64,000 bases of DNA from Aphrocallistes beatrix. Taxonomy: Eukaryota > Porifera > Hexactinellida > Sceptrulophora > Aphrocallistidae. The notes beneath the pieces are model-generated. The model saw only the letters and a program-made list of their open reading frames with translations, searched no databases and had not been told where the DNA came from. Within the stretch, counting starts at the first letter, position 1. Each line of letters opens with the position of its first letter. This document shows positions 2,717-52,914 of this stretch, one piece after another. Where the stretch lies: positions 434,001-498,000 of the forward strand of contig OY725494.1 of NCBI GenBank assembly GCA_963281255.1, given 5' to 3'. The translations under genes and the position numbers were made by a program.

Positions 2717-2810
2717 ATATATCACCGTTTCGCTACCGCACATTATTACCCTATTTATTATTATTTTATCAATTAAAAATTAGTTTTAGTTCAATTAGCG
2801 TTTAGGGGAA

Positions 2811-3731
2811 ATGTCACAAGACAATCTCATTGCTTCTCTCTCCAGAGAACTCACTGTCCCAATCCCAGAGAATAACTGCAAAGATTTCTTCGAAATTCTC
2901 AAAGGATATATTTCTGAATTAGGAGAAATGTCATTATTGTCTGATAAAGATTTACCAACTCTTCCAAGCGAAATTACAGATATAATTTCTCAAATCTCAT
3001 CAAATTCGAAAGTTTTATTTCCTTGGAAATATTTGCGTCCTGCTTTAATAATAAAATTGAAAGAAGTTCTTTCTGAATTCGCACCTGTTACAGAAGATAA
3101 GCAAGATGAGGAAATGAATATTTATATAAATATAGATAACCTACTTCTTCAACGTTTCAAACATGCGCCTCCTTTCACAATACAGCGGATTTGCGATCTG
3201 TTATCAGAACCAAAGAAATATTATAAAACGAAACTCAAATACTTACGTGCTTTTGAGAAAGTATTGACTGTTATATCACATGCAAAAGTCCATTACCAAT
3301 CACCTCCATTATCTTCAAACAGTTCTGAACCTAAATTCTCTCCACCTCCTAAAAGATTGAAACAGGAAATCAGCAACGCCTCAACCATCATAATGAGTAG
3401 TGACTCCAGTTCTTCAACCGGTAAAACTACAAGCGGACAGCTAACTCATTCTTTCGGTGAGGAAAATTTGAAGTGTGAAAGTAAAGTCGAAAAGGAATGT
3501 GAAAAGAATGAAAATGAACAGTATTTAGAATGCTCTGTTAGTGAAGCTGACTCAACGACAGTGAACGAACTACGCTCAACTCAAGAATCGAATGAGAATA
3601 GAGAAGAGAACGAAGCCAAAAGCCAAGAGACGTGTAAACCTTCCAAAGATGCTGATGCAGCGCAAAGGAAGGAGGAGCAACCGCTTAAAACAACTGAAAC
3701 TGAAGAAAAGGTGGTAGAGGATTCTTGTTAA
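2811..3731 (+). CDS. PPP4R2: Serine/threonine-protein phosphatase 4 regulatory subunit 2 (PPP4R2) homologue
   Basis: Regulatory subunit of the PP4 phosphatase complex (PP4C-R2-R3), which acts in DNA-damage signalling and centrosome/spindle maturation in other animals. The 306-residue frame is intronless and complete. Residues ~20-165 form the conserved helical region. PFTIQRICDLLSEPKKYYKT followed by KYLRAFEKVLTVIS matches human [20 protein letters not shown] and FLRGVEKNVMVVS. The C-terminal half (~165-306) is Ser/Glu/Lys-rich and disordered, with a basic PPPKRLK patch that may be a nuclear localisation signal, as in vertebrate PPP4R2. The start is the first ATG of the frame and is followed at once by the conserved region. 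It lies about 730 bp downstream of AGO on the same strand. The assignment rests on recalled similarity and is strong in the core only. Confidence 0.88.
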   Translation: MSQDNLIASLSRELTVPIPENNCKDFFEILKGYISELGEMSLLSDKDLPTLPSEITDIISQISSNSKVLFPWKYLRPALIIKLKEVLSEFAPVTEDKQDEEMNIYINIDNLLLQRFKHAPPFTIQRICDLLSEPKKYYKTKLKYLRAFEKVLTVISHAKVHYQSPPLSSNSSEPKFSPPPKRLKQEISNASTIIMSSDSSSSTGKTTSGQLTHSFGEENLKCESKVEKECEKNENEQYLECSVSEADSTTVNELRSTQESNENREENEAKSQETCKPSKDADAAQRKEEQPLKTTETEEKVVEDSC

Positions 3732-10075: not shown

Positions 10076-10756
10076 GCGAGAGCAAAACATGGGCCCAGGA
10101 CTGGAATGTGTTCGGGCCCCCTTCCCTAAATTAATTTATGGTTTGACTCAAAAATACATACATATATTAAAAATGACTAGGTGTTTGCGTCTATACGTTT
10201 TGTTTTCTGTCTCCCAAATGATTTCATTATAATATAGTTTTTTGTGGAAATGTATATCTACTATCGTATTTTCCTTTTATAGATAAAGTGTAACGATGTA
10301 AAACGGATAGTCATATTTCGAACTCTCTCAGGTTGAGAATCCTTTGCATTGAATCTACTGAGAACTTTTATTGATATACGTAATCTTTAATCTCTTTCGT
10401 ATCCAAAATAGTCAGATTTTGTCAGATCCAAGGAAATTAGAGAACTTTAGATCGTATGTACAATTAAATGATCATAACATTTTACAAACGACTTGAGAAT
10501 TCATTTGACGCTCATATTTTTTACCCTCGCTGGCAGGGGCACCGAACTTTTCGAAATCTTTTGGCAATTTTGGAGTTCTAGGGGGACTCAGCCCTATAAT
10601 TTGTATTGCGTCTATGGGCCATCTTCGAATCCAGGGGGGCTCGAGTCCCCCACAGCCCCCGGGTTCGACGCCTATGCTCATTAGTCACTCTAGTTTTGAA
10701 TACAAACTGATCAGAAGAGTTGATTAACTACACGTAGCTACAAAACATATAAATTC
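10076..10756. other. Intergenic, possible decayed element
   Basis: No gene. The 10520-10680 part contains GGGGGCTC and GTTCGACGCCTATG blocks reminiscent of a MITE end. A related AGGGGCACCGAACTTTTCG-like word recurs at 17116. Termini could not be defined. Confidence 0.3.
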
Positions 10757-11100
10757 CACCACAATCACCAACTATTCCTCACTATAGGCCTACACCTCTC
10801 CTCCCTCTTCCTTGGAGGCCTATCTCCTCACTCAGCTCGCACTCTCCTAGTATAAATAGGATCGAGTCAGCTGATCTTCCACTTCCGAATCCTAATTCTC
10901 CTCTTCTTCCTACTCCACCACAACCACCAACCATTCCTCACTATAGGCCTACACCTCTCCTCCCTCTTCCTTGGAGGCCTATCTCCTCACTCAGCTCGCA
11001 CTCTCCTAGTATAAATAGGATCGAGTCAGCTGATCTTCCACTTCCGAATCCTAATTCTCCTCTTCTTCCTACTCCACCACAACCACCAACCATTCCTCAA
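10757..11100 (+). repeat. Tandem 159-bp monomers at the LINE 5' end
   Basis: The word ACTATAGGCCTACACCTCTC begins at 10781 and 10940, and its diverged form at 11099, giving an exact 159-bp period. Each of the two full monomers contains a TATA-like AGTATAAATAGGATCGAG. Tandem 5' monomers acting as promoters are known from mouse L1. A promoter role here is inferred. Confidence 0.8.
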
Positions 11101-11239
11101 TATAGGCATATACCCCTCCTCCCCCTCGCTCGCTCGCTCACTCGGGGGAGACAGGTGCTCTGCACCTGAGCCACTTTCTTCTTCCTGTTCCTTCTCTACT
11201 TCATCCTCATTCTTATTCTCATCTTTCTCCTTCCCTCTT

Positions 11240-13078
11240 GCCTAACACCATGCGTATTTCTTGGCTCGAAATCCATCCAATCTTATTACTATCAAGCCGA
11301 TTAAATCTTCCCCGCGTGGTCATCCTCATCTCATATCCTTCCATCTTCTCAATGCTAGGAATCTTAGGACTAAATCCTCTCGTTTTCTTGACTATGTATC
11401 TGACCACCATCCTGACGTTGTTGCCGTACTGAGACCTGGTTCACGTCAAGGGATGCGGCAGTGGGAGCTGAATGCACTCCATCCGGCTACCAACTCCTTG
11501 ATCGTGCTAGGTCAGCACATCGTCAGGGTAGAGGCACTGCACTTCTCTGTCGTGATTCCTTCACGCTGAAGTGCAATGCATCTGGTGAAGTATCATCTTT
11601 TGAGTTCTCGGATTGGACTATCTCTTCTTCTGAAATTTCCCTTCGTATTTTCCTAATTTATCGGCCTCCATACTCAAGGAATCATCTTATTTCTATTTCT
11701 ACCTTCCTTGATCAGTTTTCTTCTCTCCTCGAACCCATCCTCTTATGCAAGGAGCCCCTAATAATAACTGGAGACTTCAATATCCATGTTGACATCCCAT
11801 CTGAGTCTTTACAGTTCTCCGAGCTCCTGCGTTCTCTATCTTTGATCCAGCATGTGAATCAGCCAACTCATGAGAAGGGCCACATTCTCGATCTAATAAT
11901 ATCCCGTTCTGCAGACAACATCATCCTCTCTGATCCCTCTCCTGTCCATCTATTCTCTGACCATTTCTCCATCTCTTGTAGTCTCTCGCTTTCCAAACCT
12001 TCTCTTTCCTCTCAGGAGGTTACCTATCGTTCCAAATCCATCAACCTCCCAATCTTTCTTGCTGATCTCGCTTCCTCTGATCTATGTGCTAGCCCACCTG
12101 ATCATCTTGAGGAACTTATTGTATCATATAACAGCACCCTATCCTCTATCTATGATCAGCATGCTCCTCCGCGATCCAAAACCATAGTCACCCGTCCCCG
12201 TGTCCCTTGGTTCACCAGTAGCATCAAGCAGGCCAAGCGAGCGAGAAGGAAAGCTGAACGGAAGTGGCGCCAGTCTAATGACCCTGACCATTTGGCTGAA
12301 TTCAAGCATCAGAGGTATCTTGTGACTGACCTGATGAACAGGGAACGTCGCAGTTTCTATTCTGATTGGATCAGTCAGTCCTGTCATGACCAGCGCTCAC
12401 TCTTCCGTAAGGCTAACTCACTTCTCGGCTTACGCCAGCAACAGGTCCTACCACCTCATGCTGATAAGGCTGCTCTTTCTCAGGAACTCGCCAACTTCTT
12501 TGTTCTTAAGGTAGATAACATCCGTTCCACCATTGATTCAAGTGCATCGTCGTCTTCCGTTACCCCCTCAGATAATTAAAACATCGAATTCCGACATACT
12601 TTCCACCAATTCAAAGAATTATCTGAGGAAGAAATCGTTTCCCTTGTTTCCTCTGCTCCTAATAAATCTTGCATCCTCGATCCTATCCCAGCATCCTTGG
12701 TCAAATCATCTCTACCCATCCTAGCACCCATCCTTACTAAAATCGTAAATGGTTCCCTCTCCAAAGGTCATTTTCCTTCTCCCTGGAAGCGCGCCATCAT
12801 CTTGCCCAAACTTAAAAGACCAAATCTTGATCCCATCTTCTCTAACTATCGTCCACTTAGCAATCTTTCTTTCATTTCTAAGATCACTGAGAGGGCCGCT
12901 TCCATCCAGGTCGTGAATCATCTTACATTACATCATCTCTTCCCCGGGACGCAGTCTGCCTATCGTAAACACCACAGTACGGAGACTGCACTCCTGGAGG
13001 TCACAAACGACATCCTCCTCAGCATGAATCGCCAACACGTATCCCTTCTGGTTCTTCTTGATCTTAGTTCAGCCATAG
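11240..13078 (+). pseudogene. LINE ORF2: AP endonuclease plus partial reverse transcriptase
   Basis: ORF2 normally nicks target DNA and reverse-transcribes the element RNA. The N-terminus (LNARNLRTKSSRFLDYV at ~11345-11400) is in another frame than the rest, so there is one frameshift near 11430. From about 11440 the frame continues with endonuclease motifs LIFLIYRPP-like (IFLIYRPPYS), IITGDFNIHVD and SDHFSISCSL. A single in-frame TAA at 12577 is followed, in the same frame, by reverse transcriptase sequence (FPSPWKRAIILPKLKR, SNYRPLSNLSFISKITER, AYRKHHSTETALLEV, LLVLLDLSSA). The match ends just before the expected AFDTVDH. Not functional. Confidence 0.88.
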
Positions 13079-13376
13079 CATTCTATATACTAAAGCAATG
13101 GCACTCTATTCAAAATCTGGACCATGGATGGCAATTACCATGGGCTTTCAAAATATCATGTATTGTTATACTGCCTTTCATTACTATTCTAAAGTACTCT
13201 AATGTAACATTTGATTGATTTTAATGATTTCGGACCACCCAACCCACTTAAAATGAACATATTATTATACACTTTAATGGTAAAATCACAATCAATACAC
13301 TGCTAAATATAAATAAATAATTAAATAAATAAAAGATAAAGTGTGACAATTCATTTATAACTAGACTAGATTCTTC

Positions 13377-41123: not shown

Positions 41124-41713
41124 TACGCATTTGATGATACATACAATCGCCTTTTCTATCGTCTACGCTTAGCTAATCACCTCTAACTTTGTGTCATAAT
41201 ATCTTTGCCACACTTTCGTCGAACTCTTGATAAACATATTCTAATTAATAATATTTTTTAAAATTTGTTTAGGGTCCAACAGACTAAATACACTTGTATT
41301 CCAAAATTGTAGAATAGTCAACTACATAACTACAATATATTTCTTGCATTAATGTTTTACGTTCCTATCAAGTGTGGACATTATATTGAATAATGTAGAC
41401 ATATACCCAATGCTACCTCCTAGAATTGAAGTTAAAATTAGAATTTAATTATTACATAATTGATGATACTAAACAGTAACTATGAATCATTTTTATGTTG
41501 AATTGAAACTGAATCAAAAATTATGAAACTAAGTGAATAACAGAATTTGCAATGAATAACAGAAGAGATGCTTGTGAGTGGTGTAAACACTTTCAGTTCT
41601 ATACTTAGCTTCTACCACCAGATTGCCTATGCAGCGAATAATATAAATACGTTTGCAAGTTAAATACAACAGAATGAACAAACGAACAGCAACATAACAG
41701 TCGAATAACAGAA
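41124..41713. other. 5' flank of the divergent NHL gene
   Basis: AT-rich. AATATAAATACG at 41641 could serve as a TATA element about 70 bp before the ATG. No other feature recognised. Confidence 0.35.
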
Positions 41714-42982
41714 ATGGCAGCAAAATACCCAAAAGAAGCTGAATCACAAAATATCCGAAATGTGTCTATCACCGAGTTGGAGAAAGCGTTAGAACAGCTA
41801 ACTCAAGAAGTTGAGGAGAAGAAGCAAGAACTCAAATCCACTTTTCAACACCTCCATCAAATGTTGGTACTTAAAGAAGAGACACTCATGGTAGAGCTGG
41901 ATGCCATCCCAGCTGACATCTCAGCAAAGATAGAAGAGCGTAAAGAGAGCCTGGAACAGCTGGCTCAGCATAAAGAAGGGGCAGAGAAGAAGTTACAGTC
42001 GAACGTACTGAATGACTTTCTCAAACAGGAGTTATCCGGGATTCAGAATCAAATGGAGAAGATTCTCTCCCAGCAGATTTTCTTCCCACGAGTCTCTCTC
42101 AGCTGTCGCATAAATAATATACAGGAGGCATTAGAAGACAACTGCCACATAATCCAAACTCCTAATCACTACATCACCAGCACTCAACCTATCTGGAATG
42201 AGGGTAAAGGAGGCGATTTGGTAAGTAACTTCTCCGAGGCAATTTGCATCGACAGGAACAGTCAATTGATTTATGTAGGAGACACGGAAAATTTTCAGTC
42301 TTGTAAAATTCAGGTATTTAATATCGAAGGTGAACACCATTCAACTCTACTCAATAAAGAATTCAAGTTTATCAACTCTATGCAAACACACGGAAACTAT
42401 ATTTATGTATTATCAGGAAGTGATTTCTATAAACTGAACAAAAAAGGATCTACTGTCAAGAGTTTGCGAAATCAACAATTAACGACGTTTTCGCTATTTA
42501 TTCAAGATACAAAACTCTACACTTGTTCATTTGACTCGTTAACAGTAGAAATATATGATCTCAATCTAAAATTTAGCAAAGATTTTATACTCGAGCCTAT
42601 CTCCTTTGATAAAAACACAGTTCCCCGTGATATCATAGTGATTAAACAGCAAATATTTGTTCTATTCAGCTATTCCAATTTAAAAATACATCATCATCCA
42701 GATCCTATACAGATATTTCAGCTGGATGGAACTCACATACAGTCATTAGTTATAGGAAATAGTATCAAGAGTGCCAAATACTTTTGTCTGGATTCTTATG
42801 AAAACATATTGGTGAGTGACTATGGAGGTAATTGTATCAAGATATACTCGCCAGATGGAATACTGAGGCAGAGCATTGGAAGAGACGGAGAACTGAGGAA
42901 TCCAGGAGGAATTTCAATTGATCTCAAAGGGAGAATCATCATATTGAATAAAAAGGGGGGTGCAAAGCTTCAAGCCTTCTGA
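41714..42982 (+). CDS. Divergent coiled-coil/NHL-repeat protein, TRIM-like
   Basis: 422 residues, single exon. Residues ~15-105 form a strong coiled coil (LEKALEQLTQEVEEKKQELK, KIEERKESLEQLAQHKEG). The C-terminal half has weak NHL repeats, clearest in the last two (YFCLDSYENILVSDYGGNCI and PGGISIDLKGRIIILN). Same length and layout as the array proteins at 5.6-34 kb but little sequence identity, so it is an older paralogue outside the recent expansion. No RING or B-box. A cytosolic binding or scaffold role is inferred only from the fold. The ATG follows a stop-rich AT region and begins MAAKYPKEAES. Confidence 0.75.
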   Translation: MAAKYPKEAESQNIRNVSITELEKALEQLTQEVEEKKQELKSTFQHLHQMLVLKEETLMVELDAIPADISAKIEERKESLEQLAQHKEGAEKKLQSNVLNDFLKQELSGIQNQMEKILSQQIFFPRVSLSCRINNIQEALEDNCHIIQTPNHYITSTQPIWNEGKGGDLVSNFSEAICIDRNSQLIYVGDTENFQSCKIQVFNIEGEHHSTLLNKEFKFINSMQTHGNYIYVLSGSDFYKLNKKGSTVKSLRNQQLTTFSLFIQDTKLYTCSFDSLTVEIYDLNLKFSKDFILEPISFDKNTVPRDIIVIKQQIFVLFSYSNLKIHHHPDPIQIFQLDGTHIQSLVIGNSIKSAKYFCLDSYENILVSDYGGNCIKIYSPDGILRQSIGRDGELRNPGGISIDLKGRIIILNKKGGAKLQAF

Positions 42983-45111
42983 TTACAATTAGTGGAATAT
43001 ATCTAAATACTCACATTATGTATGTGAATAGGTTTCTATTGTTCTGGATTTAGAATCCGTTACCAAATGGAAGTGTGAGATTAGAGAATGTGAAATAGCT
43101 CAATTTTAATATTAAAGGGGTGCGTCAAATCCAGCACTGTCGTATCACTTCTGCTGGCCCGGGCCTACCAAATTCAATGACCAGGAAAGCCATTTGCTAC
43201 TCATTATGACCATTATACAATACTATATGATAATCAATTGGATCAAATAGGCAGGAGTGATAGTAGCTCCGTAAATCATTAGAAATAATTAATTTATTGA
43301 AAGCTTTACTCTGATTGTTCTATGTTAAGCCGGTGCCACTGGGGTGTCCTGGGTATCCGGACACCCACTGCCTCTTCTTGTATCTAATTGTACAGTATAT
43401 GCCCTATAAATGGACACCCACTGAAGAGTATGAAGTCAGCAGCGAGATGTGAGCACGACTTAGCGCTTAATTTCTCAGGCAATTCAGTATCAACCATGGT
43501 AAAATTTGTCATGTAGAATAATCTAGTATGAAGCTTTCTTCTATTCTGATAGTTAGTGTATATCACTCCTCCCCATCCCACAGTGACATTGCAATTTTCT
43601 AATACAAAATCCCATAGACAATTTCGAGCACCATTCTCACGCCTCCTCAAATTTCTTTTCTGACTCCCTGATTGCATACAACGTTGAGGTTGTTAATTGG
43701 AAAATGCCTAACAGTCCAGGACCACGAGGGTCAACCGAGAAATTTGAGAAGTATGTAGAGTGTTGATCTATGTTTATTTGAACTCATGGAATATAGGAGA
43801 GCAAAACAAGGGGTCACTCGATGGGGTTACTAGGAGGTTTGAGTTGGAATGTTGAACATTCCTGCGTCGTCCAGGAAAATATTCAGCACGAATATGGTCA
43901 TGTGACCCTTCAAATTTCTCTAAATTGAATGCTGAGTACGACTATCAACATTAAAACCTATTAAGTATGTCATGGCTGGTCCAACTGAGATTGGAAAGTG
44001 TTCGTTTTCACAGTATGTCTCAGAATTATTGGAAATGAACTTTAACCTCGTGTAATATTAAACATATGTTTAGGAAGAGTATTATAATTCCAGGATGACT
44101 CCATTTCCGAGTTTTCATCCGATATATACACACTATCTTGAGTCCCACTATCCATGGCCTCAGCATGATGTAGTAGGCTTTGAAAGTCAGAATTATGTGA
44201 ACAATTTACGTTAGCACAAAATGACAATTCAAAAATTGTAATTTCGCTCTTAATTTATACTGACCTTGTTTAAAGTAATAGTTCGACTAATAATTGGGAC
44301 TTTTAGTTAGAATTCAACTCAAGTACAATTAAATTATATTTTAAAAAATTTTCCTTGATAAATCTGACTATTTTTTCAGTGTCTAAATCTTGCTGAATTC
44401 TTTAACAAATACTCCAAAATTACACAACTAAAATAGAATATATAATTAATTATTATCTTGAACCCTGTCTATTTTTGTGAGACATTGGAGGTCCCCAAAT
44501 GGCCCTGTTGGCCCCTTAGTCCCTGCATATTCCTCTATGGTGTATCCACTGTACCGATTCTACGTAGTATTATTTATGGTGTAAAGCAATGTTGAGTCTT
44601 TTCCTTTAGCACGACTTTCTCATATTTCACTATATGTAAGGTGAATTATTAAGGATAAATTGAATATTACTTGCATAAGATATCCCACGTACATTCATCC
44701 TAGACAAGACATCTCCAAGTGCTCGGATGACAGACTCGATTACTCCATTTTCTGGAAAATGTTAGTTATTATCAAAGCAGTAGTGTTATTGGAGACATGC
44801 AACAAACTAGTGGTTATGACTTGTGGAGAATAAGGAGAATAATCAATTTTATCATCTTACATTTGCTTATGTTACATCCTTGTGATTACCTTTACTACAC
44901 TAAGTTAATTGGTTCATCTTGTGCAGTTTACAGACAATGGGAATGAGAATCTTATGAAAGCATAGATATACTTGTACGTATATTGTTTTTATATATAATA
45001 TATAATACATATATGTATATAGATATACAATTGTAATAAATCACAAGTGACATACGTATTTGCGATAATCTGCAATTTCATAGTATAATTCCGACAGCGA
45101 TTGGACAGGAT
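42983..45111. other. Intergenic, no gene supported
   Basis: CAAGGGGTCACTCGAT at 43807 and GCTGAGTACGA near 43932 echo the foldback arms (40769 and 40740), so a decayed third copy of that sequence may lie here. A 97-codon minus frame at 43384..43677 has no recognised homologue. Confidence 0.4.
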
Positions 45112-45307
45112 CATACTTGCCAACTGTCCCGTTTTTGGCGGGATGTCCCGCTTTTTCGGACATATGTTGAAAGTATTGTCCCGTGATAACGTCCTAAAAT
45201 GTAGAATTGTCCCGCTTTTCAATGTATAGGACTAATACAAATAAACTGTTTCCTGCTAAATTACTACTTATGTCCCGATTCTTTACTTGCAGAGGTTAGC
45301 AAGTATG
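45112..45307. mobile_element. MITE, CATAC-TIR family with GTCCCGC motifs (copy 3)
   Basis: Starts CATACTTGCCAACTGTCCCG and ends TTAGCAAGTATG, with TTGTCCCGCTTTTC blocks inside. Target duplication not clear. Confidence 0.65.
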
Positions 45308-45642
45308 CAAGTCTGAATTCCATGCATTCTAGGCACTCTACAAAGGATCTCAGACTTAAATTATTAAGTTTTCAACATGCCACGTCTCCCCAAAATGGAC
45401 AATATGGCTAAATATCATCTCATTAGATGGACACTCCAAATATGTACTCATGCGAATGAATGCTTAGTGAAGTATGGAGTATTTAATTTCAGTATTTTAC
45501 TATATTTACATAATTGTATGAAAAAACACATCCAACTCAAAAATGACTGATAAGCGATGTTATCTCAATTACTATTTTGCATATAATTATCTTATTTTAT
45601 CATCTACTAGATAGCTTAGTAATCCTAGACAGCTAGTAGATC

Positions 45643-45779
45643 TGTTGCGTGGAATTCTGAGACGCATAGAATTTTGAGACACTAGTGTTATCGAACCATG
45701 GATTGCGTAGAATTTTGAGACACATAGAATTCTGAGACACTAGTGTTATAGAACTATGGATTGCGTAGAATTTTGAGAC
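45643..45779. repeat. Left terminal inverted repeat of the Ginger-like element
   Basis: Built of two ~60-bp units and five copies of a core TAGAATTTTGAGAC (two with TTCTGAGAC). Complement at 50512..50648. The iterated core may be the integrase binding site. Confidence 0.9.
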
Positions 45780-46075
45780 ATTCTATTAGATTTATTATGC
45801 AAATAGCGAGCGTAGAATTTTGAGACATTCTATTAAATTTATTATGCAGATAGCGAGCGTAGAATTTTGAGACATTCTATTAAATTTATTATGCAGATAG
45901 CGAGCGTAGAATTTTGAGACATTCTATTAGATTTATTATGCAAATAGCGAGCGTAGAATTTTGAGACATTCTATTAGATTTATTATGCAAATAGCGAGCG
46001 TAGAATTTTGAGACATTCTATTAGATTTATTATGCAAATAGCGAGCGTAGAATTTTGAGACATTCTATTAGATTT
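45763..46075. repeat. 47-bp tandem array next to the left terminal repeat
   Basis: Seven units start with GCGTAGAATTTTGAGACATT at 45763, 45810, 45857, 45904, 45951, 45998 and 46045 (period 47; the last is incomplete). Each carries the same core as the terminal repeats. The opposite end has no such array. Confidence 0.9.
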
Positions 46076-46633
46076 AGTGTCAATTATTTTAATACAGGTT
46101 ATCCTAATAACTAAATCAAACCCTCCTCTAGAGTGTACTTTACAAGATAATTGGAAGAACGTGAACATGTTTAATAATAAATAAATAAAATACATACAAC
46201 ATAAAAATGTTTATTTTAACAAATAAATAAAATATAAAGATATTTACTACAAAGGAATTATATTGTTGGTTATTTAGTAGTTTAGCAATCGGTAGTACAT
46301 GATTTCATAACACTCATATATTGCAATAAATCAGATAATCGTGCTGTCGTTAAATTAACTTGTAAAGTGTCTACTGCGTTATAATTTTGAGACATCGAAA
46401 TACTTTTTGCGTCCATTAATTACAAATCAGACTGTTCTCCTCTTAGCTTGAAGATAGGTGTTGTGTTATTTGTTAAATTAATGCTATTATCATCAGAAAA
46501 ATACGGGCCTTTCGTCTATCTAAGACTCATCAGGCTGGCTAGTTGCCAACTAGGTCCATATGTAAACACGTAGTCCGTATAGTATTGTTTGTTTGTAAAC
46601 ACCGAGTCCGTACAGTAAATGTGAAGAAGCTAT

Positions 46634-49600
46634 TTAGTCAAGAGTCTGAACATCTCCGGGTATGTTTCCATAAGAAGGAGTGGTGCAGTTTATCATTGAG
46701 ATGACTGGTTCATAATGGAGATTAAAATTTTGGATGTAGATGGCTGCTTCAGGATTGTCAGTGGCTCTATGCAGGTTCCATCTAACAACTCGAATAAGCG
46801 AGCTTCCTTGATTGTTATTGGTCGCTACATATATATCCACATTGAAGATACAAGAGGCCGTCATTATTTCCACATCGCTTCCCCAAATTCCATTAAGATG
46901 ACAGGGATTCTCATCTAGAAGGTAGTTACATGGGGTTATTTGTTTTTGTTTGAAGTACCAGGCAAGTTTCGTTGTTCCTTCAGAGGCGATAAAATGAGAT
47001 ATAATTTTACGCATTTGAGGATAGTTATCTTCTTTGCCAGTAAATACTTTCGCTAGGCATCTGTACAAACAATTGCCATCACCTACTATGCTCTCGGTCT
47101 CCCATGGTTGATAACAGCTAAGTGGTTGGCCTGCGAGGTTACTGGGTTGCCGAATTAGAGAGTCGAATTTGAGTCCATATAAATCGCATTTCTCTCTTAG
47201 CCACCCTTCTGAAAGAACTTGGATTTTAGGACTGGAGCTAGGGATCTCCGGGCTTCTGGATTTCGATTTGTCAGGAAATGAATCCCAAAGAATGGAACTC
47301 AAATACTGGATAGCCTAAAGTATAAATATTATAATATAAATTTTAAAACGTAGTCATTCGAATGTTTCGAACTGCGCACTTATAAAATAGGAATTCATAG
47401 AATAGTTTGATATACATTAGACTATTTTTATGCATTTTATCTGGACACAATTTATTAAATATAACTCACAACTCCATAAAGTACTTTCTCAGCGTATTTA
47501 GCAGCCATAATATCTCCTAATTCTGGATATAAATCTGAAGTCCAGCTCAGAACAGTTTCCCTGATTTCTTTCTTCTAAAGTCAATATGTTATTTTAAATC
47601 ATAAGTTTTAGAATTGGCAATTACTAAATGATCAAAAAGTACCAACTGATCCGCGTTCGAGTCCTTAAGAAACTGAAAAATGAGGATATTGGGGACGTAA
47701 TGGTGGAATCTATTCAGTTTCCTATGTAGATCTTCATGTAAGGGTGTCATGAAAGTACCTCGCCTCAAGTTTTCATTGAGAATAATCTAGTGATTGAGAA
47801 AATGATTCTCATGAAAAGCTCACAACATACAGTTGCACAATTATTTGTCTAGTGATAATTTTAAAATAAACATGTACAAGAATTTCGATGAAAAAATAGT
47901 AGTATGGCGTCAGCATTCTTATGAAACAAATCATGGAAACAAATCATGAGATGATTACTTTACAATCAAATAACTATTCAAATCACCTTGAGGTTCGAGA
48001 GATGATTATGAATTGCTTCACTTGTAAACCCAAATTCAATGTGTGGGGTCTAGAGAAGAAGGGCAAATAAGCAAATCATATCATGATGCATTGAGTGAAA
48101 TATTATTGAACATACTTGTGAAAGCTTCATTCTTTTGGTCTCTCGGCTATCAGTTGTCAGATCAACTTTCCTCTTTTCCGTAGATTTCGTATTAGAGAGT
48201 CTACTATCAATTTCTTGACGCTCGTAATAGAGTTGTGTGATGTGGATGGGTACTTTCTTGTCTCTTTTGGAATTTAATTCTTCTTTTGAAATGATAGCAT
48301 GACTGTCAGTAATTCTAGACGCTGTAAAAGGTCCCAAAAATTTACCCTGACTTTTAGTGTTGGGCATCTGTTTTAATTTAGGCATGTTGGTGAATAGGAT
48401 TTTGTCCCCTTCCTTAAGTTTGCACCTACACACGTATTAAAAATAATAATCAATATGAACTATGTTCGTGTAAATAATAAAAGTAGCATACCTCTTTTCG
48501 TTGACTTTCTTATCATATTGCCTCTTCTGCTTTAGCTGCTCTGATCTAATCAAGACATTCGCACGTTTCCGGGTATTGTTCCTTGACTCATTCAGGAGGT
48601 CAATTGGTTCAAGGTGGTCTTCTGGAGGGGAAAAGGTATCTAGCATTTCGCACTCCTCCTGTGCTGGTAAGGTCTCGGATAAAATTTCCTCTTCTAGTTC
48701 ATAGTCTTCATCAGGAGCTATTTTGATCTTAGATATATCAGAGACTAAATTTTCGTATTTAGATTCTCGTCCCCACATGACCTGAAATGGAGTAGACGAG
48801 TGAGACTTCTTAAAAGTCGAGTTCATGCATAAGACTGCAGGCTTTAGTAGAGTAGACCAATGTTTCCCAGTCTGAAAGGTCATCCTGTTCAACTTGCTAG
48901 AATTTAATGCATCATTAAACAATGATAATTGATTAACTTATAAATGGATGAAATACTACCACATACGATTTTAAAATCTTGTTATGCGCCTCGACCAACC
49001 CATTTGCCATCGGGTGATAGGCACGAGTACTGCGGTTGTCAACTTCTAACTTCTGATGAAATTGCTGAAAAATCTAAAAGGAGGGGAAAACATTATGACT
49101 ATCCTATCTTCTACATATATGATTGCAAAATCATAGCTTACATTGCTAGTGAACTCTTTGCCTTGATCGTGTTGGATAATATCTGGAACACCAACATCGA
49201 GATATATATCTTTCAGATTTTCGGTCACTTCATCGGCGGTTTTGGTCTTGAGAGGTCGCACCACTACATACTTGCTCAAGTAGCACACGGTGACGAGAAT
49301 GTGTTTGTAACCATCTGGACTTGGAGAGAGATCACATACGAGATCAATCCCTATGTGCTTCCACGGCCTCTCTGGAGGAGGAGTCGGCTGTAACTTTTTC
49401 TGTGGCTGAGGTGGCAAAGCTTTATTTTGCTGGCAAGCATCACAAGTTTTTACCTAGTATACAATGGTTGATTAATTTTGTTTAATTAATTAATTAGTAA
49501 TGAAAGTGAAAGACTCGTCATTAATAATATGCCAAACTCACGTAGTTCACAATCTCTGTATACATCCCCATCCAGTAATAGCGCTGCTGAATTGATTGGG

Positions 49601-50156
49601 CAGTGGAATTCATTCCAGGATGTAAAAGATGGTCATGATATTTTTCCAATATACTCGGGACATCATCACGGGATGGAACCTGGAAGTCTCTCTCCTGTTC
49701 ATCTATTATCTCTCTCTGTAATTAATACAATTAAAAACGATATACAAATATGTTTCAATAAAATACTCCAAGACGAAAATTCGTTCGGAAATGTTTATAC
49801 ATGGAACAGGTCAATTTTTTTCAGAAATTAAAATAATTGAGTGATTAACTGACAATATCTTACTATGGTAATTTATTTATTTATTAAAATTAATTAATAA
49901 ATATAAAGGTCAGTAGCCGGTCAAGTAGCTATATTTTAGAATACTTTCTATTCGCTTTTAAAAAATCTTTGAATAAACCGTAAATACCAGAATTACAGTA
50001 TTAGATCGTACTCACCTTGTAGAGTATGTCCGACTCAGATACGAAAAATCTGGTCAACTTCCTCCTGAAGTTCCACTTCTGTTGACGGGAAAATCCATCT
50101 GGATATTTTCCATGCTTTAAGAATTCAAATGTTCGGACGTACTCCAAACGATCCAT
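46634..50156 (-). CDS. Ginger1-like transposase: gypsy-type integrase fused to an OTU cysteine protease
   Basis: Cut-and-integrate enzyme of the element. Ten exons on the minus strand: 50156-50016, 49715-49542, 49453-49142, 49073-48967, 48896-48492, 48425-48116, 48049-47987, 47786-47643, 47574-47470, 47314-46634. All introns are GT-AG, 66-300 bp, and phases agree, giving 813 residues without a stop. Zinc-binding HHCC: YHDHLLHP (~73-80) and CDAC (109-112). Catalytic triad D142 (HIGIDL), D202 (IIQHDQGKEF) and E237 (NGLVEAHNK). GPF at ~411-413 (KFLGPFTASRI). The last exon is an OTU domain with GDGNCLYR (Cys ~669), WGSDVEIM and LHYEPV (His ~787). Integrase plus OTU is known from Ginger1 elements. 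The start MDRLEYVRTFEF is the first ATG of exon 1. Domestication as a host gene is the alternative but less likely given intact termini. Confidence 0.88.
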
Positions 50157-50511
50157 TTATAATTCTAAGGCGAAAAGCACATAACATCAAATACATTTTT
50201 ATAAGGCCGCTGAAAACTTGTTTCAGCCTCACTGCCCGCATCAATAATTAGCTGCCACATATATTGTCATTATTTCAATCAGCATTTCAGGTGTAAGGGT
50301 ATTGATTACGAATGATTGGGATATATACATTCGACATAATTAGTTATGATGTAGAATATCACCGGACCACACCCCTCATTGATGTTTTTTTTGGAGCTGA
50401 ATCAAGTTTTATATTAATAACAGGGGCATAATGAAAGCAAAAAATCAGGTCAAGTGAAATCTTGGGTATGAATTAATAATATTGAGATTATATACGTAGC
50501 TAGTGAACTCC

Positions 50512-50648
50512 GTCTCAAAATTCTACGCAATACATGGTTCGATAACACTAGTGTCTCAAAATTCTATGCGTCTCAAAATTCTACGCAATCCATGGTTCGA
50601 TAACACTAGTGTCTCAAAATTCTATGCGTCTCAGAATTCCACGCAACA
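50512..50648. repeat. Right terminal inverted repeat of the Ginger-like element
   Basis: Complement of 45643..45779, with five copies of the GTCTCAAAATTCTA core. Lies about 355 bp upstream of the transposase ATG and may contain its promoter. Confidence 0.9.
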
Positions 50649-50652
50649 GATC

Positions 50653-52125
50653 TCTTCATATAGTAACTTAGTCTTACATTGCTTGCAGCTGGAGTGTTGG
50701 TATTATGCTACAAGAAGCAAGAGATATCTACTGTGGATCCTACGGGGTAGCTCTAAGTGTCCACAAATACCAATCCAACGTTTACATTCTTTTCATCTCA
50801 ATCACTTATAATTTCTGGAAATGTCACTGTACCCAAGTTTTTCTTTTCATATGATACACAAATTGTATTCATATTAGAACTGTATTGATTAATTCCAATA
50901 ACCTTGAACTGCTGACAAGATCTTACACTAAATGGAGATAACATAATAAAACCTGCATTGTGTATTATTTTATAGATGTGTAATGTGAAATACTGTCTCT
51001 TCATTTAAGATAAGACAGTATTCGAGAGACATATTGGTTTGTTGATACAATTCTTTACAGTGTTAACAAGTTTACAAATCGTTTGAGTTACAGGTCATAT
51101 TACAATCACTAACTACACACTATAATGACAAGTGAATAATAAGTAAAAAGATTACTTGATTCTTCGAGAAGTACCAGTGACAATTATTGGTTTGACTTTC
51201 TTGTATTTTGTTGTTATTACCACTGCCATCAGCACATTTTGAGACAGAACTACAATTAGAAGGTAATAACAGATCATTAAGCTGTTTAGGGTATAATAGA
51301 TTGGGGGTTGAATAAAAAAGGTTGGACTATAGACAACCAAAAAAGTTTCACAATCAACAAATACACACGTTTGTCATTGTGCTCTAATTTTAGTAAATAA
51401 TCGAAATCTTCGTAAATTTGAATGTTTCCGAGTGATGGAATTCCGACAGAATTCTAATGTTTCGGTGAACTCTTTTTACCCAAAGTATGGCTGAGAAGCA
51501 GCGGGATGAACATCTAATTTCTGCTTAGTTTCTATCAACACAATGAATTATTGTTAAGCATGACATTATCATATTTGGGATCCTACCGACTTAATTATAA
51601 CTTAGTATGGCGTGAAGAACTAAGGGAAGAACTAAAGACCTCCTAGAGTGATAGTAACCTTATCACATCATTTGAGGGGCGGCTTGCATTAATGTAAGGG
51701 ATTAGATGAGACAAAAAATTGCCCCGTGACCAATTTTGGCAGGCTAAAATTGGACTCCTCTACCAAATCTTTCGTGACGTTCCCAGTATCTTAATCTAAA
51801 AGATGCAAGGCATTTAGATATTTGAAATTCATTGTGCTCTATACAGTTCATGCACTGGAAATCAAAGTACAATCATTTCCAAATTATCCAATTAAAAATC
51901 TGCAGTGAAATCAATTAGAAACAAATTATGTTGATTAACTGAGATTTTTATTATAAACGAGACAAACAAATCCCATTGAATTTAGTTGGAATTCTTTAAT
52001 CTCGTCGTAAACTGTTTTGATGCTATTGAGTTTCACGAGCAATCAATAAAACAAATATACTTGTTGTTGTTGTATTTATTTGAAAATTAACAATTGATAA
52101 GGGATAATAAACAGATATATTAGCA
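50653..52125. other. Intergenic, no gene seen
   Basis: AT-rich. Only short, unconvincing frames on both strands. 51880-51990 resembles 53350-53460 (AATTAGAAACAAATTATGTTGA-like words), suggesting another old duplication. Confidence 0.4.
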
Positions 52126-52151
52126 TCCTTACTATTAAACTCGATTAATGT
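52126..52151 (+). repeat. R-family terminal motif
   Basis: TCCTTACTATTAAACTCGAT followed by TAATGT, one base shorter than the 25342 copy. Followed within 20 bp by a Tc1-like MITE. Confidence 0.55.
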
Positions 52152-52172
52152 ATATTTATATATAAATATACA

Positions 52173-52647
52173 CTAAGCGGACAAAAGTATTTCAACACTT
52201 GATTCTTTCCCATACAAATAATACTAAAATGGATCTATTCATGAAGAGGGTTACTTCTAAACGGTATGGGATACAGCTAATCGGATTCCAGATTCGAATA
52301 ATACGCATTCAAATTAGTCACAGGTTAATTTTTCTAATTAATCATTCATTCCTAACTTTTTTTAATTATCAATCAATGCCACCTTATGCCACATACACCC
52401 ATTTTAACCACTATACATGATGGCAATGAATTACCTATGGTGGCTCAGGCTGATAAGATTGTTCATTGAATTGGGTAATTTTTTGGTTATGTTCAACCAT
52501 AACTAATTCGAATGTGTAGATTTCGAATCTGAAATCAGATTTTTACTATCTTTTTGAATTTAAACATATTGCCCTTCATGAAATACTCCGATTTAGTATT
52601 ATTTGTATGCGAAAGAATCAAGTGTTGAAATACTTTTGTCCGCTTAG
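52173..52647. mobile_element. 475-bp Tc1/mariner-like MITE
   Basis: CTAAGCGGACAAAAGTATTT at the left end is the complement of the right end (AAATACTTTTGTCCGCTTAG) within a TATA setting. Next to it both arms continue with CAACACTTGATTCTTT. Interior without coding sequence. Confidence 0.8.
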
Positions 52648-52914
52648 TATATATAAATGCATAAAATCAGACGAAAATGTCGACTTATCATGAAATTGTG
52701 ACAATGTTGATTAGGAATTTATTAATCTACTGATAGAATAAATGCCAAGTGAACAAAGAGAGAAATACGTTAATAAGAAAGGACTAAATAGGAACCTAAA
52801 CTGATCTAATAAATACTGTGTACGATATCCGACTAGTTGGGTGGTCTAACAGAGTAAACTAAGTGCATCTAGTTTCTAGTAGTTCAACTCGGCAATTACT
52901 TTATTACAAAATGA

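Follow-up and report, generated by a model that had tools for sequence, protein, structure and literature searches.

Ginger1 DNA transposons are defined by a protein layout of H2C2, DDE and GP(Y/F), terminal inverted repeats (TIRs) of 40-270 bp, TGTNR tips and 4-bp target duplications (PMC2836005). The duplications were CCGG (75%) or CCGT/ACGG (24%), based on 112 Hydra elements (PMC2836005). An OTU type is represented by Hydra Ginger1-1, -2, -3 and -11_HM, together with Aplysia and aphid elements (PMC2836005). The integrase-OTU architecture is not new, OTU-bearing Ginger1 having been published in 2010 (PMC2836005). Here, we describe an element in a 64-kb window of Aphrocallistes beatrix. The window is the whole stretch of DNA analysed (64,000 nucleotides), and spans positions 434001-498000 of contig C8 (OY725494.1) in a 100.5-Mb assembly of 28 contigs. 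We conclude that the element is very probably a complete, apparently autonomous, intron-bearing, OTU-type Ginger1-like DNA transposon that uses integrase-type transposition into the target A-GNNC-T.

The transposon occupies positions 45643-50648 (5,006 bp) and its gene is on the minus strand. An inverted-repeat search identified arms at 45638-45779 and 50512-50653 that are 96% complementary. Within the element, the TIRs are 137 bp each (45643-45779 and 50512-50648; 96% alike), and the tips, TGTTGCG...CGCAACA, lie at 45643 and 50648. GATC adjoins both tips, at 45639-45642 and 50649-50652. An 18-bp end motif, GCGTAGAATTTTGAGACA, has 13 copies in the window when one mismatch is allowed. All 13 copies are inside the element, where shuffles led us to expect 0.00; nine point one way at the 3' end of the gene and four the opposite way at its 5' end. 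The one-sided array of this motif is longer in a copy on contig C19 than in the window copy. Plausibly, the repeated motifs are candidate transposase binding sites. Besides a 47-bp array, no direct repeats of 60 bases or more were detected in 43500-52800. Hence, there is no pair of long terminal repeats (LTRs).

Ten exons, running on the minus strand from 50156 down to 46634, join in phase into a reading frame of 813 codons with a stop, and each of the nine predicted introns is GT-AG. In a Pfam search at E up to 1, the 813-aa protein matched Integrase_H2C2 (2.1e-18), rve (7.7e-11) and OTU (6.3e-7), and also zf-H2C2 below the family cut-off (0.0022); no reverse transcriptase, aspartic protease, Gag or further family was found. 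By sequence, residues 1-483 match the solved structures of prototype foamy virus (PFV) integrase (2.1e-24) and Ty3 (3.1e-21). The zinc finger residues are H74, H79, C109 and C112, while catalytic D142, D201 and E237 have D,D-35-E spacing. Conservation was counted in aligned genomic loci, some of which overlap and are counted. Y18 and P19 of a candidate YPYY region upstream of the zinc finger are present in 15/15 loci. In a GPY/F-type motif, G411-P412-F413, recognised as a motif only, G and P are each kept in 29/30 loci, with F or Y at 413 in 20/30. The features of the element are as follows.

45639..45642: left 4-bp target duplication GATC, context AGTA-GATC
45643..45779, plus strand: left 137-bp TIR, on the 3' side of the gene; starts TGTTG; about 2.3 units of 58 bp
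45763..46076, plus strand: array of a 47-bp unit, repeated 6.7 times, with the TIR motif GCGTAGAATTTTGAGACA
46634..47314, minus strand: exon 10, OTU-like cysteine protease domain (residues 588-813; D666, C669, H787, E789) and stop
47470..47574, minus strand: exon 9
47643..47786, minus strand: exon 8
47987..48049, minus strand: exon 7, 63 nt
48116..48425, minus strand: exon 6, GPF (GPY/F-like) motif, residues 411-413
48492..48896, minus strand: exon 5
48967..49073, minus strand: exon 4, third catalytic residue E237
49142..49453, minus strand: exon 3, zinc-finger cysteines C109/C112, catalytic D142 and D201
49542..49715, minus strand: exon 2, zinc-finger histidines H74/H79
50016..50156, minus strand: exon 1, start codon and candidate YPYY region (Y18-P19)
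50512..50648, minus strand: right 137-bp TIR, at the gene's 5' side, with the 18-bp motif in four near-copies
50649..50652: right 4-bp target duplication GATC

A sequence-only reading of this DNA had proposed a Ginger1-like transposon with an integrase-OTU protein. The TIRs, the duplications, the lack of an LTR pair and of a reverse transcriptase, and the multiple sites all bear this out. Its 137-bp inverted repeats and flanking GATC duplications were correct, as were the coordinates and the count of 813 codons, with no stop or frameshift. The HHCC, D142, E237, GPF and OTU Cys/His assignments also stand; the remaining catalytic aspartate is D201, not D202. The reading suggested searching the spliced protein with hidden Markov models, and Pfam returned Integrase_H2C2, rve and OTU. 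It regarded LTRs as evidence to the contrary, and none were seen in 43500-52800.

Like OTU-type Ginger1, the element has one transposase gene with H2C2, DDE, GP(Y/F), a C-terminal OTU domain and introns (PMC2836005). Similarly, its TIR length is within the 40-270-bp range, TGTTG fits TGTNR, and the duplications are 4 bp (PMC2836005). The long one-sided array of end motifs is without counterpart in the accessible published description (PMC2836005). Ginger2/Tdd elements share an integrase-type transposase, TIRs, TGTNR tips and 4- or 5-bp duplications; unlike the element, they have an RTATAY target and lack GPY/F and YPYY, and an OTU domain is unmentioned in the accessible text (PMC2836005). Neither an RTATAY target nor loss of GPY/F was observed here. 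Helitrons use a rolling-circle RepHel protein and are not known to have an integrase or TIRs. What OTU-bearing Helitrons have in common with the element is an OTU domain encoded by a transposon (PMC2836005; PMC9741609). Ty3/gypsy and PFV integrases resemble the transposase in their zinc finger, D,D-35-E core and clear sequence match, and differ in having no OTU domain. They are part of LTR elements with reverse transcriptase. Neither LTRs nor reverse transcriptase was found in the window copy and its surroundings. Since the tested features agree with Ginger1 except for target and intron number, we call the element Ginger1-like, of OTU type, with a different target.

We next consider copies elsewhere in the genome. 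A search with the 137-bp end, also suggested by the sequence-only reading, gave 42 matches. Nine of them are full-length with at least 96% identity, including the two ends of the window copy itself, and the copies are at different sites. The 813-aa protein gave at least 109 exon matches; 55 of 1,847 candidates were scored, so genome copy counts are lower bounds. OTU exons of sister families are 51-76% identical to that of the window. At loci of sufficient length, exons end near the same residues as in the window gene, and the gene layout is common to the families. OTU-only modules inside other elements were considered and rejected, because nearly every locus that extends far enough has integrase-part exons upstream of the OTU exon. 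The integrase part is visible only from residue 257, 307 or 380 onward at some loci, where the stretch ends, and at two (L033 and L040) only the last exons are visible.

The copy on C19 belongs to the same family as the window copy. It is 5,393 bp long and 96.4% identical over 4.86 kb; its ten exons are uninterrupted, and each intron has GT-AG borders. The five relatives compared with the window copy are 96-97% identical to it. Other copies are closer to each other. Four loci on four contigs (L044, L045, L046 and L047) are 99.1-99.9% mutually identical, and four more, also on four contigs (L048, L049, L051 and L054), 99.0-99.9%. The C10 (L044) and C14 (L045) copies are 99.87% identical and have different duplications, GAGC and GGAC. 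The earlier description 'recent, possibly active' is therefore not shown for the window copy, given its 96-97% identical relatives, and the stronger indications of recent movement come from a sister family, with its 99.9% identical copies and different duplications. Short units of 0.39-0.56 kb were also seen between sister-family ends (C7:2912232, C2:1474344, C8:3763701, C1:4231455, C13:1126128 and C3:5146591). Only their ends were read; the duplications are GTAC, GTGC or GCAC. These units are probably non-autonomous derivatives.

Insertion sites were read in events drawn from part of the 42 and 46 TIR matches. The two ends of a copy were assigned to each other solely from their position and orientation, the widest pair (C10) being 12.9 kb apart. 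Loci with no recognisable tip (L085, L105, L117, L019, L020 and L024) were left out, and the tips of L118 and L119 were identified visually. GNNC adjoins the tip in 45/45 insertion events of a first set, across families. A second set of 10 events contains nine with GNNC and one with GGGT (single-ended C3:1393440). Combined, GNNC accounts for 54/55 events, mostly as A-GNNC-T, and the published Ginger1 duplications CCGG, CCGT or ACGG for 0/55. In the first set, the base before the 4-mer is A in 31/32 cases and the base after it is T in 33/36. In the second set, T (L116) and G (L055) also precede the 4-mer; hence, the outer A is a preference. Identical direct 4-mers flank 20 of the 23 two-ended events, and six of the nine with a non-palindromic 4-mer. 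These six indicate a direct duplication, not an inverted tip.

When joined, the flanks of the window copy align with paralogous empty sites, two on C1 (C1:12393758 and C1:12266217; 82%) and one on C2 (C2:7048557; 77%). The alignments continue across the junction, where GAT is present once and there is an indel of one base. Because the flanks match uninterrupted loci, the element sits in sequence that exists elsewhere without the insertion. We conclude that the A-GNNC-T target is well supported here, looks new and is distinct from the one published for Ginger1. Among the matches listed from the open-licence PMC literature (titles and starts of abstracts), no Ginger elements with GNNC duplications were reported.

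Flanks of copies from different families are alike and share TATATAAGGCCTAAGAGTAACTTAACCAGGGATGC. Allowing up to three mismatches, the string has 219 genomic matches, 94 of them exact (reversed control, 0), and none in the 64-kb window. It forms the terminal portion of a dispersed palindromic repeat, about 1.07 kb long (L106 484-1551; C1 near 4765198), into which several Ginger families have inserted. A string test placed 14/67 ends, from 10 events, at this one position in the repeat; L021 and L022, with one shared flank, are two ends in this count and one event in the target count. The 10 events include C8:1133282, with GGAC at a variant repeat site. An eleventh event, on C4, was recognised by eye. 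A further string, TAAGGCCTAA, has 315 genome places (reversed control, 238), including the 94 exact TATATAAGGCCTAAGAGTAACTTAACCAGGGATGC places. Sequence preference and repeat abundance together may explain this clustering. A multicopy small-RNA gene was considered as the shared target and dropped. In Rfam searches of six end loci and four loci of the target repeat, the only hits were to microRNAs and fell below the database's own cut-offs. ARAGORN found no tRNA in the four target-repeat loci, and the shared sequence belongs to the palindromic repeat instead. Separately, outside the 11 events, a sister-family tip on C12 near 3547820 (L057 1166) has GGCC and a flank resembling a palindromic-repeat variant.

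Selection was assessed from the ratio of nonsynonymous (dN) to synonymous (dS) change. Between the window and C19 copies, dS is 0.050 and dN 0.013, giving an overall dN/dS of 0.26 (Fisher p 7e-6); the introns differ by 3.1% (33 of 1,062). For residues 1-587, dN/dS is 0.21 (p 1e-5). The OTU exon compared with three sister copies has a dN/dS of 0.12-0.15 at a dS of about 1.2, a stop codon being skipped in one. Exons 5 and 6 behave like the OTU exon at similar distance (0.15 and 0.17). In more distant families, synonymous sites are saturated. At the level of sequence, the OTU exon is conserved between families. C669 and H787, the OTU pair, are present in 40/40 and 37/37 aligned loci, respectively. 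D666-G-N-C669, H787 and E789 are invariant in an alignment of eight OTU exons from the genome. Pfam OTU matches each of these exons individually (8/8), and a profile built from them finds OTU domain-containing protein 1 (7.2e-8).

Several observations weigh against our interpretation. The 4-mers disagree in 3/23 two-ended events (C18, GGCC/GACC; C1:12351772, GTCC/GGAC; C12:242579, GTAC/GCCC). A possible fourth mismatched pair, C15:2671606 (GTAC, second tip GGAC), was left unpaired. The empty-site relatives have GATA rather than GATC at the junction, with the one-base indel. The catalytic residues are not invariant: D142 is kept in 14/15 aligned loci, D201 in 15/16 and E237 in 9/12, the other three having L, perhaps through alignment beyond the exon end. 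For the OTU exon alone, window versus C19, dN/dS is 0.44 and not significant (Fisher p 0.12). In comparisons with close copies of the window's own family, where changes are few, the ratio ranges over 0.26-1.63 for the OTU exon and over 0.51-1.57 for exon 5. AlphaFold, run on a single OTU exon sequence, returned a predicted local distance difference test (pLDDT) score of 33 and the prediction was not used. Finally, compared with Ginger1, the target is GNNC in A-GNNC-T instead of CCGG or CCGT/ACGG, and there are nine introns where the published table has 0-4, a difference that is hardly defining (PMC2836005).

The closeness of the integrase to those of Ty3 and PFV could suggest a Ty3/gypsy fragment, or an integrase-only remnant between chance inverted repeats. 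We consider this extremely improbable. A search of the protein at E up to 1 gave no match to reverse transcriptase, aspartic protease or Gag, 43500-52800 contains no long direct repeat other than the 47-bp array, and the TIR-bounded unit recurs with direct 4-bp duplications. Alternatively, an open gene with suppressed protein changes between two copies would fit an immobile host gene, domesticated from a Ginger1 ancestor like Gin-1 or Imagin; domesticated Ginger1 genes do exist (PMC2836005; PMC12863088). However, TIRs and target duplications are intact, the catalytic residues are kept, copies occupy different sites and related empty sites occur. Domestication is thus very unlikely, and a Ginger1-like transposon is the preferred explanation.

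For the OTU domain, we think it most likely that it is an active deubiquitinase, which would shield the transposase or insertion-site repair factors from ubiquitin-driven removal. Many OTUs have Asp or Asn at the position after His-Tyr. In the element this residue is Glu, as might be expected if the domain were inactive, or a self-processing protease fold kept for binding. The activity of transposon OTU domains was untested as of 2022 (PMC9741609), and action of OTU or Ulp1 domains on repair factors has been suggested for Ginger1 (PMC2836005). On the other side are the DGNC motif, Cys and His, invariant among the eight exons, the presence of Cys and His in all aligned loci, and the low dN/dS of the OTU exon between families. 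Hence, we regard an inactive or self-processing fold as unlikely and favour the deubiquitinase.

The host genome and the rest of the window were also inspected. TGF-beta domains are encoded at 5 places in the genome, compared with 0/14 control genomes. No Wnt was found in the genome, a weak result since the control gave no match anywhere. A report on the glass sponge Oopsacas minuta describes the same combination, TGF-beta present and Wnt absent (PMC10280926). This is suggestive of the 'sponge-like genome' claimed from sequence alone and falls short of proof; on these domains, an animal host is likely and a glass sponge no more than plausible. Elsewhere in the window are an open reading frame (ORF) with a Piwi domain match (1483-2082; 3e-52) and an ORF with a PPP4R2 match (2799-3731; 1.4e-17). 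A run of coiled-coil proteins that resemble one another and contain NHL repeats, in a TRIM-NHL-like layout, spans 5573-33960 and 41678-42982; Pfam NHL was found in 3/3 ORFs scanned and the remainder were judged alike by eye. A non-LTR retroelement remnant (11416-13218) has an endonuclease and a partial reverse transcriptase, the latter below the Pfam cut-off. A 159-bp tandem repeat (10755-11123) has a unit containing TAGGCCTA, which also occurs at 159-bp spacing at C1:3238229-3239031. Perhaps these repeats are one satellite family.

The mechanism that we propose for the Ginger1-like element is as follows. The integrase-type transposase would bind the inverted ends, probably via the repeated GCGTAGAATTTTGAGACA motifs. 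The TG...CA ends would then be joined, staggered by 4 bp, to target DNA within A-GNNC-T, to produce GNNC duplications. Here, we infer the excision mode, motif binding and OTU role. A broader proposal is possible and is made tentatively: a separate, recently active lineage of Ginger elements in a sponge-like animal may have switched from CCGG, a target that contains CpG, to A-GNNC-T, landed repeatedly at a single position close to the end of the palindromic dispersed repeat and needed an active OTU deubiquitinase to spread.

Gypsy and retroviral integrases mostly find their targets via weak sequence preference or tethering. In this genome, a many-copy relative of such integrases, whose copies include intact and nearly identical ones, recognises a sharply defined palindromic target. 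Comparison of Hydra Ginger1 with GNNC-targeting elements could reveal which residues of the integrase determine target choice. The conservation of the OTU active site among families provides a concrete case for addressing why transposases carry deubiquitinase-like domains.

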